64,000 nt of DNA from positions 205,257 to 269,256 of the forward strand of contig CAKZLO010000034.1 in NCBI GenBank assembly GCA_937127125.1, in the 5' to 3' direction. Positions 28,623-38,025 of the stretch are shown piece after piece. This stretch comes from an uncultured Ardenticatenia bacterium (lineage in GTDB: Bacteria > Chloroflexota > Anaerolineae > 4572-78 > NAK82). Below the pieces are notes generated by a model. The model had not been told where the DNA came from, did no database searches, and worked only from the letters and a program-made list of their open reading frames with translations. The position numbers were made by a program, and so were the translations under genes. How positions within the stretch are numbered: position 1 is the first letter of the stretch; each line of letters starts with the position of its first letter.

Positions 28623-28722
28623 CGTGTCTCATCTCATCCAATAGAGGTGAACGAAAATGGTCATCTTCTCTTTCTTGCTTTTCACGAGCAGGTCTGTTGA
28701 AGAGCGAGAGATGTTTCTTGCC

Positions 28723-28751
28723 TTGTTAAAGGTTTGCTCTTATCATAATAT
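28723..28751 (+). promoter_or_regulatory. Promoter of the ECF sigma gene
   Basis: TTGTTA (28723-28728), 17 bases, TAATAT (28746-28751) predict a start near 28758. The leader then contains GGCCCC (28765-28770) and GGGGCC (28798-28803), which could pair as a hairpin just before the start codon. Confidence 0.5.
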
Positions 28752-28821: not shown

Positions 28822-29367
28822 ATGGCAACGGATGAATATGCTCTCATCGAGCGCGCCAGAAGTGACCCTGAAGCGTTCGGCCTCTTGTATGAGCGCTACG
28901 TCGGTAAGATTTACAGTTATATATACTATCGGGTGGGCAACCATTACGATGCCGAAGACTTGACGGCGCGCACGTTCTATCGTGCCTTGAACCATATTGC
29001 GGAATACACGCCGCGTGGTGCGCCTTTCTCAGCCTGGTTGTATCGTATTGCCCATAATTTGGTGGTCAACTGGCATCGCGATCGACAGCGTCATCGGCTT
29101 GTCTCATTAGAAGAGGCAATGCTGCACACACCGCTTGGGCATCCAGAAGAGCTGCAGCAATTGAGCGAACGTGAAGAGGAAAAGGAACGGTTGCTTGCAG
29201 CGGTGCGTAGTCTGCCCGAAGATCGCCAGCAGTTGCTCATTCTTAAGTTCGTCGAAGGTTTATCAAACGTTGAAATAGGACAAATTATGGGACGTAGCGA
29301 GGGTGCGATCAAATCGTTGTACTATCGTACCTTACTTTCGTTACGCGAGATGCTTGAGAAGGAATGA
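28822..29367 (+). CDS. ECF-family RNA polymerase sigma factor
   Basis: Alternative sigma factor of group IV. The 181-residue protein has only region 2 (residues ~8-75, LYERYVGKIYSYIYYRVG then DAEDLTARTFYRAL, the core-binding and -10 recognition parts) and region 4 (~125-175, LPEDRQQLLILKFVEGLSNVEIGQIMGRSEGAIKSL, a helix-turn-helix for the -35). Regions 1 and 3 are absent as expected. No Shine-Dalgarno is visible before ATG 28822. The neighbouring 122-residue membrane protein is a plausible cognate anti-sigma. Target promoters are unknown. Confidence 0.92.
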   Translation: MATDEYALIERARSDPEAFGLLYERYVGKIYSYIYYRVGNHYDAEDLTARTFYRALNHIAEYTPRGAPFSAWLYRIAHNLVVNWHRDRQRHRLVSLEEAMLHTPLGHPEELQQLSEREEEKERLLAAVRSLPEDRQQLLILKFVEGLSNVEIGQIMGRSEGAIKSLYYRTLLSLREMLEKE

Positions 29368-29414
29368 TGCAGCCGGAGATCGGTGACATTGAGTGCATCT
29401 AAGAAGTCCTTCGA

Positions 29415-29426
29415 AAAAGCGCTTTT
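29415..29426. repeat. 12-base perfect palindrome between the sigma and membrane-protein genes
   Basis: AAAAGCGCTTTT lies in the 92-base gap, flanked loosely by GTCCT and AGGAC. It could be part of a hairpin or a binding site; there is no T-run long enough for a clear terminator. Confidence 0.4.
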
Positions 29427-29459
29427 AGGACGCAGAAAGGATAGCAAATAAACATCACC

Positions 29460-29828
29460 ATGCGAGATCTAGCAGGAAAGATCAAAGCTCGCATTGATAG
29501 CTTGACCTTTGTTCTCTTTGAGGACGACAAAGAGGCAAGATATCTTCCGCCCGCCGAGAGAATTGATGTCGCCAGATTGAGAAGCCTGACAGAACACTTG
29601 CAGAAGACATTGGTTCCTGTACCTCCGCGGGCGGAATTCCGGTCGCGCCTCAAGGAGAGTCTGATAGCAGCAGCAAGTCAGCGTATGGCAGCGGAAAGGG
29701 AAAGTCGTGTAGCAGCGTTGCGCCGTCGCTGGATGTTGATTGGAGCGGCGGCCGGGTCGCTTTCGATGCTCTCCGTTGCTGGTATTATAGCTGCGGTGTT
29801 GCTGCATCAGCGGACTATCCGCCTCTAA
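29460..29828 (+). CDS. Single-pass membrane protein, candidate anti-sigma factor
   Basis: 122-residue protein with a cytoplasmic N-terminal portion and one C-terminal membrane helix (about residues 93-114, LIGAAAGSLSMLSVAGIIAAV). The segment PVPPRAEFRSRLKESLIAAA is reminiscent of short proteins found next to ECF sigma genes, which hold the sigma factor at the membrane. There is no HxxxCxxC zinc motif, so it is not a classical zinc anti-sigma. The link to the sigma factor rests on position (92 bases apart, same strand) and topology only. Confidence 0.6.
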   Translation: MRDLAGKIKARIDSLTFVLFEDDKEARYLPPAERIDVARLRSLTEHLQKTLVPVPPRAEFRSRLKESLIAAASQRMAAERESRVAALRRRWMLIGAAAGSLSMLSVAGIIAAVLLHQRTIRL

Positions 29829-29848
29829 GTCTTCACTGATCTGGCCTG

Positions 29849-30415
29849 ATGGAATTATGTCCGGACTTAGAATGTTACGTCTCCGTGGACGTCGAGACGT
29901 CCGGTCCTTTTCCCTCAACATACTCTCTTCTTGCCATTGGTGCCTGCCTGGTCTACGAGCCCACACAGTACTTCTATGTTGAGCTGCGCCCCCTGAGCAC
30001 TGCTTCCGCACCTGAGGCAGCCAGAATACACAGATTGTCCTTGGATCGTTTGGCCGTTGAGGGCCTGCCCCCAGCTGAGGCGATGCTGCGCTTTGCGGAT
30101 TGGCTGAAATCCGTAATGACAGAGGGGAGGAGGCCCTTGTTCGTTGGATTCAATGCTGCGTTCGACTGGATGTTCGTCAACGACTACTTTCACCGTTTCC
30201 TTGGGTACAACCCTTTTGGCCACGCTGCGTTAGACATCAAGTCGTTCTACATGGGAATGAGCGGTCGGCGATGGTGCGAAACTTCTATGCGCCAACTGAC
30301 ACGACGTTATCTGGGCGGTCGGCAGCTGGCTCATCATGCTCTCGATGATGCACTACTGCAGGCAGAGCTATTCCGTCTACTGTTGGCTGAGGCAAGAGCG
30401 CAGCACAACAAATGA
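29849..30415 (+). CDS. DEDDh 3'-5' exonuclease (RNase T/DnaQ superfamily)
   Basis: 188-residue single-domain nuclease with all catalytic residues of the DEDDh group: D14 and E16 in VSVDVETSGP, D106 in FVGFNAAFDWMFV, and H162/D167 in HHALDDA. The enzyme would remove nucleotides from 3' ends of DNA or RNA using two metal ions. The size and lack of additional domains resemble RNase T or the free epsilon-like exonucleases; DNA polymerase III epsilon is less likely because no polymerase-binding tail is seen. It lies 20 bases after the membrane protein and 37 before the next gene, so it is probably co-transcribed with both. Confidence 0.85.
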   Translation: MELCPDLECYVSVDVETSGPFPSTYSLLAIGACLVYEPTQYFYVELRPLSTASAPEAARIHRLSLDRLAVEGLPPAEAMLRFADWLKSVMTEGRRPLFVGFNAAFDWMFVNDYFHRFLGYNPFGHAALDIKSFYMGMSGRRWCETSMRQLTRRYLGGRQLAHHALDDALLQAELFRLLLAEARAQHNK

Positions 30416-30452
30416 ATGAATAAGAAGTATCGACCTGAGAGGAGGATACCTT

Positions 30453-31796
30453 ATGACAGAACAGGGCAACAGTACGCCAGCAGCCGATTTGCGCCGCATA
30501 ATCGAGTCAGCGCAGCGCTTAGGTGTCGAGATGGACGAGGAAGAGGCTCTGCAGTGGTTAGCTGCTATTGCATCTTCGCAGTCGTCGGCCAAACAGCTAG
30601 TGGTTGATCCCACCAGTGGGATCTTTGGTCATCATTTGAGCATGCTGGATTTCGATCCTGCTGAGCTGGCCTATTTTCGTCAAGTAGGCCAGTTGGTCGA
30701 ATTCGCTAATGATCCCCCACAAGTTGAGACCGCACTGGCACTGTCCGGTTCGGCCGCTCAATCTCGCATTCAGACTTATCCCGGTGACCTTGACTATTTT
30801 GAAAGGGTGAACATAAGGGCGGTGACACGCGAGGAGGCGTGTCAGATACTCTCCCGGTTAATGCGCGATAAGGCACTGAGCACAATGGCGGGGGAAACCT
30901 ATCGCTTGATTGAGGTAAAATTTGGTAACTATCCCTGCGATGTTGTACGGGATGGGCGCCTTGCGAAAAAGGGCACACCGATTGCGTGGAAACCGGATGA
31001 AATTCGCAGTGGGGTGATTGTGGCATCTCGGCCAGATGATTCAACCGTTAATATTACATGGGATGAGGTGTCGTTCGATCCGGGTTGGTGCAAGCTCGAC
31101 TGGGTGGTTGCAGATCCAGTCCGTGCCACTGTTTCCAATGCAAGCAACATGTTGGATGTAACGTGGGAGTCGCCTGATGGCACGATTACACCTCTGGATG
31201 GTTATCTTGATCCCTATTTCCAAGAGGTCTATCTCGAGGCTGAATCAATCCCTATCTTCTCTAAGCTGGTACGCCATATGAGCACCAGTGCTCTCGATGA
31301 TTACGTTGCTCAGTTGGAGAGAGAAGTGACCAAATATCTTGTCAAGGATGTCAATTACGGGAAGGCTGCCAAGCGCATGTACAATATCTTTCGGCTGACC
31401 GGACGCTATGATGAGGCTGCTTATTTGCGGGAGCTCTTTGACGAACCGGCGGCGATGCTGTATCAGGTCTGGGCACTGATCCGCACCGTGGAGGAAGCTT
31501 GCGCGCCCCATTCTACCATCCCTGCCAAAACGGTGGTATCTCAGGCTGATGAGCTCATACTTGCTGTGACTCGTGCCTTGGAAGGTGAGAAAGAGGTCGA
31601 GATTGTGCGCTATTTGCTGCGTTTGCGAGATAGTATCGCTGGGTGCGAAAAAAGCGCCCTGGCATCCTCTCAGGTGGAAGCAGCACGCAATGAGGTTATT
31701 AACCTGGTCAACAATTTCTTCTATGAAAAGCTCACAGCTATTCCTACGATTCGAGCCTATATGGAAGATAGGATACATTTGTCATCGGGAGGATAG
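30453..31796 (+). CDS. Unrecognised protein with a nucleotidyltransferase-like signature
   Basis: 447-residue cytoplasmic protein (no signal or membrane segment) that I do not recognise as a named family. Residues 97-116 read as LSGSAAQSRIQTYPGDLDYF. This fits the pol-beta-type nucleotidyltransferase pattern hG[GS]-x(9-13)-DhD: G99-S100, then D112 and D114. A third acidic residue on a following strand may be in RLIEVKFGNYP. The C-terminal third (about 270-440) looks helical, with DDYVAQLEREVTKYL and an RMYNIFRLTGRYDEAAYLREL tetratricopeptide-like stretch. AGGAGG lies upstream of ATG. The catalytic role is a hypothesis; its place after an exonuclease makes RNA or DNA end metabolism possible. 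Confidence 0.7.
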   Translation: MTEQGNSTPAADLRRIIESAQRLGVEMDEEEALQWLAAIASSQSSAKQLVVDPTSGIFGHHLSMLDFDPAELAYFRQVGQLVEFANDPPQVETALALSGSAAQSRIQTYPGDLDYFERVNIRAVTREEACQILSRLMRDKALSTMAGETYRLIEVKFGNYPCDVVRDGRLAKKGTPIAWKPDEIRSGVIVASRPDDSTVNITWDEVSFDPGWCKLDWVVADPVRATVSNASNMLDVTWESPDGTITPLDGYLDPYFQEVYLEAESIPIFSKLVRHMSTSALDDYVAQLEREVTKYLVKDVNYGKAAKRMYNIFRLTGRYDEAAYLRELFDEPAAMLYQVWALIRTVEEACAPHSTIPAKTVVSQADELILAVTRALEGEKEVEIVRYLLRLRDSIAGCEKSALASSQVEAARNEVINLVNNFFYEKLTAIPTIRAYMEDRIHLSSGG

Positions 31797-31944
31797 GGGA
31801 GTCTTCAAAAGGGTTGCTCGATCTTAGCTCAGATGCTTCAGGGAGCTGGCTTGCAGTGCGGGAACACGCATAGAGGGCGTGTCGTCCTGAAAATAGAATG
31901 CATAAGGCGTGGTAGCCTTGTACCCCGAAAGGGAGGAGATGCTA

Positions 31945-34900
31945 ATGAGACTCCGAGTAACCGCCTTCTTATTGTTGAGCCTGCTTGCGGTCGGTTTCTC
32001 TGCACAGGAAGCTCATCTATATCCAGCAAGACCGCCTATTCACTCTGGTTTCTCCAATACTGAGAATCCAATAAGATCTCTGCCTCTCCCGAAAACGTTT
32101 CCGGAGTACATGTATGTGGAGGAGATATTGATTCCACCTAGGGTGATCCAGAGCACACCTGAAGCTGGCGAAGAGATACCTCTGGACGCTTTCATTGAGG
32201 TCATCTTCGATCAACCAATGGATCAGAGATCAGTCGAGGGAGCTTTTCAGCTCTTTCCCACAGTCAATGGTCGCTTCGAATGGATCGACGCGCGCACGTT
32301 GCGCTTTCAGCCGGATTCTCTGTGGGATCGCGGCCAATCATATGAGGTAATCATCTCCTCGGATGCGCGCTCGCTCGAGAAGGTACCACTGCGCGAACCG
32401 TTCCGCCTGCATTTTGCAGCGGTTGGATTCCTCGAGGTGACACAGGTTATCCCGGCCAATGGATCTCAGGATGTTGATCCAACAAATCTAGCGATCACAG
32501 TGATGTTCAACCGTCCTGTGGTGCCGCTCGCAGCGCTGGCCGAGCAGGAGAATTTTCCCCAACCTTTGCAAGTGCAACCCCCCGTCACCGGGAAGGGTGA
32601 GTGGATCAACACTTCAGTGTACGTGTTTCGTCCAGCTGAACCCTTAGCGGGCGGAAGCACTTACACTGTTAGGGTGCAGCGCGGCCTCACTGATACAACT
32701 GGTGGATTACTGGCCGCAGATTACGAATGGTCGTTCAGCACGTCACCTCCCGTCGTGGTGGCGACACAGCCGGCCGATGGCGCCGAGATGGTAAGTGTCA
32801 AACCCCAGATTCAGGTGCAGTTTAGCATGCCTGTCGATCCTGTCTCAGCTGCTGACTCATTTCGCCTGTCGCGGGATTCTGAGGAGGTACCAGGCGATTT
32901 GCATGTGGTGAGGAATACGCTGTATTTCACCCCAACCCGCCAGCTGGAATTCGCAGCGCTTTATCGGGCCGAACTTGCGCGCGGTTTGCGCGCGGCTGCA
33001 GGCGGTGTCCATGGTATGAGGCAGGATTACTCTTTCACTTTCAGAACGGTGCCTCTGCCCGAAATTGTGAGCACACACCCACGTGACGGAGAGCAGGCCG
33101 CTGATCCCTATACCAGTTTTGTCATCCGTTTCAATACTGAGATTGACCCCTCCTCCGTGTTGCCACGTCTGGCGTTTAGTCCGAACATAACTGCATCTCA
33201 GGTGATGACCTATTACAACAAGTGGGATCACGCTTTTGTCGTCCAGTTCGGTGCGCAACCTTCGACAGAGTATTGGATCACCATCTCGCCAGGTATTCGC
33301 GACCCTTATGGCAATGAGACAACCCAAGAATTCACCGTGTATTTTCGCACGGCAGCGTTGTTGCCCGATTTTCGCCTCCTCACACCTGCGTTGGTAAGCA
33401 GTTACGATGCCGGAGCGCCCGCCCGTGTTCTTGTGGCTTTCGTGAACATTTCCCGGCTCGATCTGGCCCTTTATCGTCTTACTCCGGATATGATCACTTA
33501 CCCAGAATGGCAGTGGGATGAATATCGTCCTCCTCGTTCCGCATTGGTGAGGCGCTGGCACGAGCACCTCGAGGCACCGCTCAATAAGCAGAGCTATGCA
33601 CGCATTGATCTAGTTGAAGGTGGTGGGTTGCTGGAGCCTGGCTTGTATTTGTTGCGCGTCGATTCTCCTCAACTGCCCGAGGAACGTCGCTATCGTTGGA
33701 ATCGCCTGCACGTGCTGGTGGTCTCGGCATTCAATCTGACGTTGAAGTATGGCCCGTATGATGCTCTTGTATGGGCAACCGACCTAGCTGGCGGGGCACC
33801 AGTCGAGGCATTGGATGTACAACTCTATGATGTCAGCAGCGAAAGGCGATTGGGGACGCAAACGACAGATGGTCAGGGCATTGCGAAGTTCGCTTTAGAC
33901 GGGGAAGGATATCGTGAGTTAATTGCCTACACTGAACAGCCCTTCGCTGCTGTTTCCAGCCGTTGGGCACGTGGTACCAGTGCATGGGATTTCGGCTTAC
34001 CCACCGCCTATGATTGGAGCAAGGCGCGCGTGGTGCTCTACACCGATCGTCCCATTTATCGACCCGGCCAGACGGTATATTTGAAAGGCGCATTGCGTTC
34101 CGAGGACGATGCAGTATATGCTCTCTCTGACGCTGACCAGCTCAAGTTGGCTGTGACCGACCCCAATTACGAGGTGGTGTTCGAGGGATATGTGTCCTTG
34201 AATGAGAATGATACTTTTGAGACCAGCTTGCAGCTGGAAGAAGGAGCGTTTCTTGGTCCTTACACCATCAGTGCCGAATTCGCCGGACGCAACTTTCAGA
34301 GTACCTTCCAGGTGGCCGCTTATCGCCCACCCGAGTTTCAAGTGACGGTGACCCCATCCGTCTCAGAAACGGTTTTGGGTACCCCTTCGGAAGCTACTGT
34401 GGAAGTAAGCTATTTCTTTGGGGGCGCGGTGAGGCAGGCGCCGGTGCAGTGGAACCTCTTGGCAGAGCGTTATATATTCAGCCCACCTTGGGGTGGTGGC
34501 TATACTTTCACGGAGACGGACGATCCTTGGCAGTGCCTCGACTGTTGGTGGCGTCCGCCACGTCCTCCTACGCCTATCCTGAGAGGTGATGGCACAACCG
34601 ATGACACTGGTCGCTTCCGAATCTCGATCCCAGCTCAGCTTGTGGATCAGGATGGCAAGCCCATCCAACGCAGTACACGATTGATCATTGAAGCGTCGGT
34701 GACTGGTCGGGACAATCAGGTTATTGCAGGTCGTTCCGACTTGGTCTTACACCAAGGTGACTTCTACGCTGGTTTGCGCACGCGTCGGTATGTCGGCCGA
34801 GCTGGTGAACCGTTCTCTGTTGATCTGATGGCGGTGGACTGGCAGAGCGAGAGACTACCGGGGAAACAACTGCAGCTACAAGTCTATCAGCGAGAGTGGG

Positions 34901-37900
34901 ACAATGTCTATGTTGAAGATTCACGGTGGGGTGGCCGCTGGGAGTATCAGGAGAAAGATAGCTGGATCGACACCGTAGAGGTGGTCACCGACGAGCGGGG
35001 AGAGGCAGTAGCTACCTTCACTCCACCTCAAGCTGGTACATATCGTCTGGTAGTTCTGGGCAAAGACGACGCTGGACGTGAGGTCCGCGCCAGTGTGTTC
35101 ATCTGGGCGACTGGCAAGGAGAGCGTCACGTGGCGTCGCGAGAACAATGATCGCATCAACTTGGTCTCTGACAAGTCTTCTTACAAACCGGGTGAGGTCG
35201 CCGAGGTACTTATTCCTTCGCCCTATGAACAACCGCATTACGCACTGGTTACTGTGGAGCGCAATCGCATCCGACGTTATGAAGTGATCTATCTGGAAAC
35301 AAACAGCTATGTCTACCAGTTACCCATCGAGCCATCAGATGCGCCCAATATTTACATTTCCGTTGCGCTGGTCAAAGGAACCCAGCTGGATGGTCGTCCG
35401 GCTGATTACAAGGTGGGACTGTTACCTCTGAATGTATCTACTGAGCGGCAAGAGCTCCGAGTGACCATTACGCCAGTGCAGGGCAGAGTTATGCCTGGGG
35501 ACACACTAGATTGTGCTATCAAAGTCACCGACTGGCGCGGGGAACCGCTCCAAGCAGAACTTTCGCTCGATGTGGTGGATAAGTCTGTGCTCAGTCTGAT
35601 GCCACGTCCCCTCAATGCATTGCGGGAGGGGTTCTATTTTCGCCGTGGGGTGGGTATTAGCACTGCTGCCACGGTGGCAATCGCAGCAAACCGCCAGCTG
35701 GAGGAAATGGAGCTGCAGTTGGGATATATGGCACCTAGGGCTGAAATGGCAGAAGAGGGCGTGCCTTCCCCAGTTCCCACCGCAATGGTTGCGCTCGCGC
35801 CCTCGGAAAAGGCAGACCAGGCAAAGGCAGCCGTGCCCTTTGGAGTGACGTTACGGGAAGAGTTCGCCGATACAGCTTATTGGAACCCAGTGGTGATGAC
35901 CGATCAGCGCGGCGAGGCGAGGATAAGCATCAGTCTGCCAGACAACATCACTACGTGGGTGATACGGGGTCTGGCTATCAATGCGGCGACTCAAGTTGGC
36001 GAGGGGTTGACAGAAGTGATCGCTACCAAGCCCTTGCTCATTCGACCTGTTACGCCACGTTTCATGGTCGCAGAAGATCGCGTTGTCCTAGGTGCAGCAG
36101 TGAGCAACAACGCGGAAAGTGCCTTGGATGTTGTGGTAAGCCTCTCGGCAACCGGTATCACGCTACAAGATGCAGCAACACAGACGGTGCGCATTGAAGC
36201 TGGCCGTGAGGAAACTGTCACCTGGAATGCTCGAATCACCGATGCCCCCTACGCTGATTTGGTTTTTGCTGTCCTTGATCGGAGTGGCGTCTACAGCGAT
36301 GCCAGTAAACCTAGGTTAGCAACTGGCCCGGAAGGCGCACTGGCCATTTATCGTTACTCAGCACCCGACGTTGTGGGTACTGCTGGTAGCTTAGCCGGGG
36401 AGGGCAAAATCACCGAACTGATTGTGCTGCCGCCTAAGTATGATGGTCGACGCGGATCGCTTCAGGTGCGCATCGACCCCTCTCTGGCGGCCAGCATCCG
36501 CGAAGGCCTGACCTATCTCGAGCACTATCCTTATGAGTGCACTGAGCAGACCGTCAGCCGTTTCTTACCCAATGTGCTAACCTATCGCGCGCTGCAGCAA
36601 CTGGGCATCGCTCGACCCGATCTGGCCGACAAGCTGACACGTCTGGTTGAGCAAGCGCTGGGTAAGTTGTACACTCATCAGAATGGCGATGGTGGTTGGG
36701 GATGGTGGCCTAATCGTGAAAGCAACCCCCATGTCAGCGCTTATGTCGTTTTTGGTCTGCTGATGGCGCGCCAGACCGGCTTCTCGGTAAGCGAGGATGT
36801 GTTACAGAGAGGCCTGGAGTTTCTGCACACTCGCTTGGTACCTTTGCAGGAGCTGGAACGAGAGTATCAAGCTAACCAGCAAGCTTGGATACTGTATGTG
36901 CTGGCCGAGGCAGGTCAAGCTCCCTTCGGATACCTTGAGGAGTTGTACACATACCGAGCTCGCCTTAGCCTGTACGCACGTGCCTATTTGGCAATGGCAC
37001 TACAGCTGCAAGGATATGGCTCAGGCTGGGTCAACACGCTGTTGTCCGATTTTAACAACGCTGTCATTCTAAGTGCTACTGGTGCCCATTGGAGGGAAGC
37101 GGAGACCGACTGGTGGGCGATGAACTCAGACACACGGACAACTGCAATCGTGCTCGATGCGTTGGTGCGCCTCAATCCTGACAACGCGCTGATCCCTAAC
37201 GTCGTGCGATGGCTAATGGTCGCGCGCAAGGGCGACGTGTGGTCCACTACCCAGGAGACCGCATGGGCATTAATTGCGCTCACCGACTGGATGCGCTACA
37301 CGGGTGAGCTGAAAGCTGCTTATCATTACACTGTGCAGCTTAACGAACAGCAGCTGGCTGATGCTGAGGTCACCGAGCAGACAGTGGAACGTGGTCAGCA
37401 AATCCGTGTGGATGTTGCTGAGTTGTTGCAACAGGCTGCCAATCAACTCATTATCACACGCAACGCCGGCCCGGGTCAGTTGTACTATACGGCACATTTG
37501 CAGGTGTACCTGCCGGTCGAGGAGCTGCCTCCTGTAAATCGTGGCATCATAGTACAGCGACGTTTCTCACTCGCATCGTGCAATCAGGGAGCCCGTTGCC
37601 CGGATATCAAAGAGGCAAAGGTTGGCGATTTGATCCGGGTTAACCTCACGATTATCGCCCCAAACGATCTACATTATCTGGTGGTAGAGGACATGCTACC
37701 CGCCGGTGCAGAGGCAATTGACCTTGGTTTGGCTACTACCAGCTTACTTGCTGCACGACCACAGCTGTACCGCGCTGTACCAGAGGCAGAGTATTCGCTC
37801 CCTTGGCATTGGTGGAACTGGTATAGTCGCAGCGAGCTACGCGACGAGAAGGTCGTGCTGTTCGCCGATTACCTGCCCGAGGGGACATACGAGTACAGCT

Positions 37901-38025
37901 ATGTGATGCGAGCCACTACACCGGGCGACTTTCATGTTATTCCTACCTTGGCCTGGGAGTTCTACTTCCCAGAAGTGTTTGGACGTAGTGCTGGTCGTAT
38001 GCTATATATTGGGCAGGCGCAGTGA
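31945..38025 (+). CDS. Alpha-2-macroglobulin-like secreted protein with thioester motif
   Basis: 2026-residue exported bacterial alpha-2-macroglobulin, a protease trap acting at the cell surface. A signal peptide (MRLRVTAFLLLSLLAVGFSA) is followed by repeated Ig-like (BIG_5 and macroglobulin) domains, e.g. VIPANGSQDVDPTNLAITVMF. There follow the YTDRPIYRPGQTVYLKG segment typical of the family, a bait-like region, and the thioester domain with C-T-E-Q at C1532 (YPYECTEQTVSRFLPN), so the internal thioester is probably functional. An alpha-alpha toroid and receptor-type domain follow. There is no lipobox cysteine, unlike E. coli YfhM. ATG 31945 has GGAGG eight bases upstream; ATG 31939 is too close to it. 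Confidence 0.92.
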   Translation: MRLRVTAFLLLSLLAVGFSAQEAHLYPARPPIHSGFSNTENPIRSLPLPKTFPEYMYVEEILIPPRVIQSTPEAGEEIPLDAFIEVIFDQPMDQRSVEGAFQLFPTVNGRFEWIDARTLRFQPDSLWDRGQSYEVIISSDARSLEKVPLREPFRLHFAAVGFLEVTQVIPANGSQDVDPTNLAITVMFNRPVVPLAALAEQENFPQPLQVQPPVTGKGEWINTSVYVFRPAEPLAGGSTYTVRVQRGLTDTTGGLLAADYEWSFSTSPPVVVATQPADGAEMVSVKPQIQVQFSMPVDPVSAADSFRLSRDSEEVPGDLHVVRNTLYFTPTRQLEFAALYRAELARGLRAAAGGVHGMRQDYSFTFRTVPLPEIVSTHPRDGEQAADPYTSFVIRFNTEIDPSSVLPRLAFSPNITASQVMTYYNKWDHAFVVQFGAQPSTEYWITISPGIRDPYGNETTQEFTVYFRTAALLPDFRLLTPALVSSYDAGAPARVLVAFVNISRLDLALYRLTPDMITYPEWQWDEYRPPRSALVRRWHEHLEAPLNKQSYARIDLVEGGGLLEPGLYLLRVDSPQLPEERRYRWNRLHVLVVSAFNLTLKYGPYDALVWATDLAGGAPVEALDVQLYDVSSERRLGTQTTDGQGIAKFALDGEGYRELIAYTEQPFAAVSSRWARGTSAWDFGLPTAYDWSKARVVLYTDRPIYRPGQTVYLKGALRSEDDAVYALSDADQLKLAVTDPNYEVVFEGYVSLNENDTFETSLQLEEGAFLGPYTISAEFAGRNFQSTFQVAAYRPPEFQVTVTPSVSETVLGTPSEATVEVSYFFGGAVRQAPVQWNLLAERYIFSPPWGGGYTFTETDDPWQCLDCWWRPPRPPTPILRGDGTTDDTGRFRISIPAQLVDQDGKPIQRSTRLIIEASVTGRDNQVIAGRSDLVLHQGDFYAGLRTRRYVGRAGEPFSVDLMAVDWQSERLPGKQLQLQVYQREWDNVYVEDSRWGGRWEYQEKDSWIDTVEVVTDERGEAVATFTPPQAGTYRLVVLGKDDAGREVRASVFIWATGKESVTWRRENNDRINLVSDKSSYKPGEVAEVLIPSPYEQPHYALVTVERNRIRRYEVIYLETNSYVYQLPIEPSDAPNIYISVALVKGTQLDGRPADYKVGLLPLNVSTERQELRVTITPVQGRVMPGDTLDCAIKVTDWRGEPLQAELSLDVVDKSVLSLMPRPLNALREGFYFRRGVGISTAATVAIAANRQLEEMELQLGYMAPRAEMAEEGVPSPVPTAMVALAPSEKADQAKAAVPFGVTLREEFADTAYWNPVVMTDQRGEARISISLPDNITTWVIRGLAINAATQVGEGLTEVIATKPLLIRPVTPRFMVAEDRVVLGAAVSNNAESALDVVVSLSATGITLQDAATQTVRIEAGREETVTWNARITDAPYADLVFAVLDRSGVYSDASKPRLATGPEGALAIYRYSAPDVVGTAGSLAGEGKITELIVLPPKYDGRRGSLQVRIDPSLAASIREGLTYLEHYPYECTEQTVSRFLPNVLTYRALQQLGIARPDLADKLTRLVEQALGKLYTHQNGDGGWGWWPNRESNPHVSAYVVFGLLMARQTGFSVSEDVLQRGLEFLHTRLVPLQELEREYQANQQAWILYVLAEAGQAPFGYLEELYTYRARLSLYARAYLAMALQLQGYGSGWVNTLLSDFNNAVILSATGAHWREAETDWWAMNSDTRTTAIVLDALVRLNPDNALIPNVVRWLMVARKGDVWSTTQETAWALIALTDWMRYTGELKAAYHYTVQLNEQQLADAEVTEQTVERGQQIRVDVAELLQQAANQLIITRNAGPGQLYYTAHLQVYLPVEELPPVNRGIIVQRRFSLASCNQGARCPDIKEAKVGDLIRVNLTIIAPNDLHYLVVEDMLPAGAEAIDLGLATTSLLAARPQLYRAVPEAEYSLPWHWWNWYSRSELRDEKVVLFADYLPEGTYEYSYVMRATTPGDFHVIPTLAWEFYFPEVFGRSAGRMLYIGQAQ

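Follow-up and report, generated by a model that had tools for sequence, protein, structure and literature searches.

The exonuclease and nucleotidyltransferase (NTase) genes at 29849-31796 of the window very probably constitute a real two-gene cassette, and structural models predict that the second product shares a common fold with the ORFan nucleotidyltransferases of Megaviridae. The window is the whole 64,000-nucleotide stretch that was analyzed, positions 205,257 to 269,256 of the forward strand of contig CAKZLO010000034.1 from an uncultured Ardenticatenia bacterium. The pair occupies the last two places in a run of four genes on one strand, with intergenic gaps of 92, 20, and 37 bases, an arrangement noted in the preliminary description of this DNA and borne out by the open reading frame coordinates. 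The features of the region are as follows.

28822..29367, plus strand: ECF sigma factor (Sigma70_r2, TIGR02937); a neighbor, probably outside the conserved unit
29460..29828, plus strand: probable anti-sigma factor of small size with a single hydrophobic segment (NF052375, below cut-off); a neighbor, also present in locus L033
29849..30415, plus strand: DEDDh 3'-5' exonuclease of the Cap18 type, 188 aa (RNase_T, 7t2s, PADLOC, conserved residues)
30440..30445, plus strand: AGGAGG, resembling a ribosome-binding site and ending 7 bases upstream of the NTase ATG (from the sequence)
30453..31796, plus strand: nucleotidyltransferase with predicted Megaviridae ORFan fold, 447 aa (fold searches, two alignments)
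30747..30752, plus strand: codons of G99-S100 in the NTase motif (invariant; helix 99-103 of the model begins here)
30786..30794, plus strand: codons of D112-L113-D114, presumed metal-binding acids (D112 and D114 invariant; start of strand 112-122)
31098..31100, plus strand: codon of D216, presumed third catalytic acid, in the motif KLDW (invariant; in strand 214-221)

Comparison with L033, the nearest relative of the window in which the upstream region is present, gave dN/dS values of 0.05 for the exonuclease, 0.014 for the sigma factor, and 0.13 for the anti-sigma protein; for the NTase, dN was 0.11 and dS was saturated. Directly downstream of the pair, the window encodes a bacterial alpha-2-macroglobulin of 2038 residues with four Big_5 stretches (31909-38025), which was not found as a recurring neighbor of the pair among the loci of relatives.

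The NTase had been described from its sequence as belonging to no recognized family, and searches of Pfam, NCBIfam, PHROGs, PADLOC, and PDB sequences likewise returned no family match. The pol-beta-like pattern of G-S followed by D-x-D that had been pointed out in it is present as G99-S100 and D112-L-D114 (G-S-x11-D-x-D). None of the aligned family members (23 in one alignment, 75 in the other) departs from G99, S100, D112, or D114, which rules out a chance match to the motif. A third acid, D216, is invariant in the same alignments and is presumed, from its place in the modeled NTase fold, to be the third catalytic acid. The G-S/D-x-D motif, the third acid on a neighboring strand, and the NTase fold together place the protein in the pol-beta-type NTase superfamily. 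Identification as a CCA-adding enzyme was disfavored because genes of the PolyA_pol class sit at two other places in the genome of the window.

Structures were predicted by AlphaFold2, with 75 family sequences, for the window protein (pLDDT 77.3, pTM 0.74) and for a protein of Bellilinea caldifistulae that is 61% identical to it (pLDDT 77.6, pTM 0.62); because one sequence set was common to both, the two models are replicates that are not fully independent. Both models contain the nucleotidyltransferase core that the motif had led the preliminary description to anticipate, together with an all-helical C terminus that extends from about residue 262 on. In the window model, GS starts a short helix (residues 99-103), D112 and D114 start a strand (residues 112-122), and D216 lies in the strand at residues 214-221; confidence is low at residues 1-47 and 104-111, the latter being the loop just before DxD.

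When the two models were compared with the PDB using Foldseek, the only matches at E<0.001 were 4ams, 4amq, and 4xul, which are Megaviridae ORFan nucleotidyltransferases (M. chilensis Mg662), one of them solved with GTP. These matches had E values of 1.5e-6 to 7.8e-6 over 406-445 alignment columns, with moderate TM scores of 0.40-0.53, and the next matches after the Megaviridae entries had E values of 0.025 or worse. Predicted viral structures yielded 16 matches at E<0.001, four of which were nameless and all the named ones of which were from giant viruses or virophages; the best was Zamilon V6BPH6 (E 2.4e-13, TM 0.57 in both directions). The window NTase thus resembles the Megaviridae proteins in its combination of an NTase core and a helical domain, and their predicted giant-virus and virophage relatives in overall fold. 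In contrast to this structural likeness, identity to the Megaviridae proteins is about 10%, and neither phmmer nor profile hmmsearch linked the NTase to the 4ams, 4amq, or 4xul chains at E values up to 1-10. Unlike the viral proteins, moreover, the window family is bacterial and chromosomal, and its genes often lie beside an exonuclease gene. Because no sequence relationship was detected, the family is treated here as fold related and not as a proven Mg662-type member; the models make homology to the viral ORFan NTases likely, short of proof. A search of the open-access literature found no functional study of the proteins represented by 4ams, 4amq, and 4xul.

The first nonviral fold match of the window model was 8exe, a FAM46/TENT5 protein, and it was weak (E 0.03). 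The noncanonical poly(A) polymerases of this group also consist of an NTase core and a helical domain, and the NTase motif resembles their GSAA...DLD motif, a resemblance that we take as a lead only. TM scores, however, were just 0.14-0.18, and FAM46/TENT5 was missing among the top matches of the second model. The FAM46 profile NTP_transf_7 (PF07984) had no match at E<=10 in the window genome and no match listed among 23 members of the NTase family, and assignment to FAM46/TENT5 by profile was therefore rejected.

Whole-genome searches found the NTase family in 11 of 61 genomes of relatives and, across the phylum, in 23 of 400 genomes. In GTDB contigs, 286 matches were confirmed, mostly titled Chloroflexota, and the best 80 of them were used for the locus analyses. 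The family also occurs in a second phylum, that of a WS1-labeled locus, in which 6 of 201 genomes carry the NTase; this phylum is probably Armatimonadota, since the 201-genome sample includes the genomes of two Armatimonadetes-labeled loci. In the NTase tree, the second-phylum sequences (L046, L073, L112, and L150-L155) nest inside those of Chloroflexota, which suggests that the NTase was likely transferred between phyla. No exonuclease was detectable in three second-phylum NTase genomes that were checked. Two more close relatives, L041 and L050, carry Actinomycetota labels. An origin of the NTase in mobile elements or phages was rejected, as relatives were found neither in plasmids or phage records nor in IMG/VR contigs, the latter by a scan that needs conserved peptide patterns and would miss distant relatives.

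Relatives keep both the acidic pair and the order of the exonuclease and NTase genes, whose conservation the preliminary description had named as a test. In 57 of the 80 loci an exonuclease gene neighbors that of the NTase; in 56 of these it is upstream and codirectional, with a spacing that is mostly below 150 bases (862 bases in L082). In L035 the neighbor is a less closely related exonuclease (31% identity), encoded downstream of the NTase gene on the opposite strand, and a second arrangement of the pair, with adjoining but divergent genes, occurs in two further genomes, both of family f61 (L017 and L022). Exonuclease adjacency extends across most clades of the NTase tree, with about 13 changes, and the two genes remain together while the flanking genes change from clade to clade. 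In the 400-genome sample of the phylum, 9 of the 11 with a close exonuclease also carry the NTase (Fisher p 6e-11, a guide only, the genomes being related and not independent). Because the pair persists amid changing flanks and co-occurs in the sampled genomes, the exonuclease and the NTase are likely to be functionally linked, and the NTase can also stand alone. Some NTase loci that lack an adjacent exonuclease are at contig edges, others come from genomes with no detectable exonuclease anywhere, and many genomes have the NTase and no detectable exonuclease.

The frequent occurrence of the NTase by itself would suit an enzyme that acts on a protein or a small molecule (compare the MNT-type antitoxins and the aminoglycoside adenylyltransferases), beside an exonuclease that is unrelated but co-regulated. 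Fold matches to AadA and ANT(3)(9) point in the same direction but are weak (E 0.07-0.1), whereas a nuclease as conserved partner suggests a nucleic acid substrate, and neighbor clustering of the 80 loci showed no toxin-like partner recurring beside the pair. We regard such a target as distinctly unlikely.

The gene preceding the NTase had been read as encoding a DEDDh exonuclease, an assignment confirmed by a match to Pfam RNase_T (1e-6, above the cut-off) and by similarity to Escherichia coli Cap18 (PDB 7t2s) over residues 5-178, nearly the whole length (E 1.2e-52). All five catalytic residues are intact, and D14, E16, D106, H162, and D167 are kept in 57-58 of 58 relatives. Cap18 was first named from a CBASS operon, where a catalytically dead mutant still gave protection against phage lambda (PMC9122588). 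The exonuclease family is also found elsewhere in the phylum without this NTase. A related exonuclease without the NTase is present in L125, L126, L127, and L128, from small (1.1-1.2 Mb) genomes of family f69, where inspection of the sequences leads us to take the flanking genes to be an aldehyde dehydrogenase gene and a MutY-like glycosylase gene.

The kinship with Cap18 brings in the main rival explanation, nucleotide signaling of a kind resembling a stripped-down CBASS, in which the NTase would synthesize an oligonucleotide, whether cyclic or linear, with the exonuclease as an accessory protein, an effector, or a degrader of the signal. The exonuclease matches the PADLOC profile "Effector, Exonuclease" (1.2e-68), and in another genome of the phylum (L120), which has a Cap18-type exonuclease without the window-type NTase, that exonuclease (1489-2043) sits directly behind a Cap17-like ATP nucleosidase (326-1489; PF18178, E 5.6e-73). 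The models share the NTase fold with OAS and the CBASS CD-NTases, matching OAS, CdnE, and DncV weakly (E 0.03-1.2; 4txz 0.03, 1px5 0.08, 7x4a 1.2). Eight related loci of the Anaerolineaceae type, including L055 (9359-9919) and L060 (9703-10365), have a 2H phosphoesterase gene (2'-5' RNA ligase superfamily) downstream of the pair; since all but one of the eight group in a single clade region of the NTase tree or in its neighbors, this may be lineage synteny. Against a signaling role, the OAS and CD-NTase matches are far below those to the viral NTases, and no SMODS CD-NTase (PF18144) was found in the window genome. Membership in CBASS was rejected on the absence of PF18144 from the genome and of any PADLOC match for the NTase. 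Unlike Cap18 in CBASS, the exonuclease is here partnered by an enzyme that is not a CD-NTase, and clustering of the neighbors in the 80 loci revealed no HORMA, TRIP13, Cap2/Cap3, or recognized effector gene that recurs by the pair. The recurrent surroundings in those loci are not defense islands; the pair is often found among housekeeping genes, which from sequence inspection we take to include dnaG, rpoD, and a tRNA synthetase gene. On balance, signaling is a somewhat unlikely function for the cassette.

The first two genes do not share the conservation of the pair. The first encodes an ECF sigma factor, as originally read (Sigma70_r2, 1.5e-17; TIGR02937, above its cut-off), with a score of 158.6 bits against the BldN-like profile TIGR02952, under the cut-off of 206. 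The product of the second, read as a membrane protein, is short and has a single hydrophobic segment; its match to the anti-sigma profile NF052375 is marginal (E 5.7e-4, under the cut-off). A further reading, which takes up the proposed control by a membrane-tethered sigma system, is that all four genes form one ECF-sigma-controlled stress operon, and the shared strand, the short gaps, and the same four-gene order in L033 agree with this. Among the loci examined, however, only the window and L033 have the pair preceded by sigma and anti-sigma genes, and the upstream gene varies elsewhere, so the two regulatory genes were rejected as part of the conserved unit. A promoter-like site is present at 28718-28746 (TTGCCT-17-TATCAT, 9 of 12 consensus positions), but the six such sites in the region do not clearly exceed the 2.8 +/- 1.7 expected by chance, leaving the single promoter suggested for the four genes unproven. 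A stress operon of all four genes is accordingly very unlikely. Thus, in the original interpretation, the NTase core, the conserved acids, and the gene order stood, whereas placement of the pair under a membrane-tethered sigma system found no support.

The most likely function of the cassette, although our confidence in it falls a little short of even, is reversible editing of 3' ends by a Cap18-type DEDDh 3'-5' exonuclease and a terminal-transferase-like NTase. D112, D114, and D216 of the NTase would hold a metal-bound NTP, the all-helical C-terminal part would grip the substrate, and the enzyme would add untemplated nucleotides to a 3' end, with RNA a likelier substrate than DNA. The exonuclease would trim the same class of ends that the NTase extends, and the balance of trimming and tailing may set end length or choose between repair and decay. 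Activity and substrate are inferred, as is any contact, physical or functional, of the exonuclease with the NTase, and it is in this sense that a joint role in nucleic acid end metabolism is put forward. Counting against trimming and tailing are the viral ORFan structures, for which the literature searched gives no known activity; the many separate occurrences of the NTase and the exonuclease; and, on the structural side, the moderate TM scores, the missing sequence link, and the low-confidence loop.

It is possible, and we propose it tentatively, that this bacterial family is the cellular counterpart of the giant-virus ORFan NTase and that, with the Cap18-type exonuclease, it forms a previously undescribed two-enzyme unit that trims and reextends 3' ends. 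None of the profile libraries searched contains the NTase family, and the pair places a Cap18-type exonuclease outside CBASS. The viral ORFan fold gains bacterial relatives through which its origin and activity become accessible to study, and because Bellilinea caldifistulae and Levilinea saccharolytica, both cultured and named species, have the pair, what its enzymes do is directly testable.
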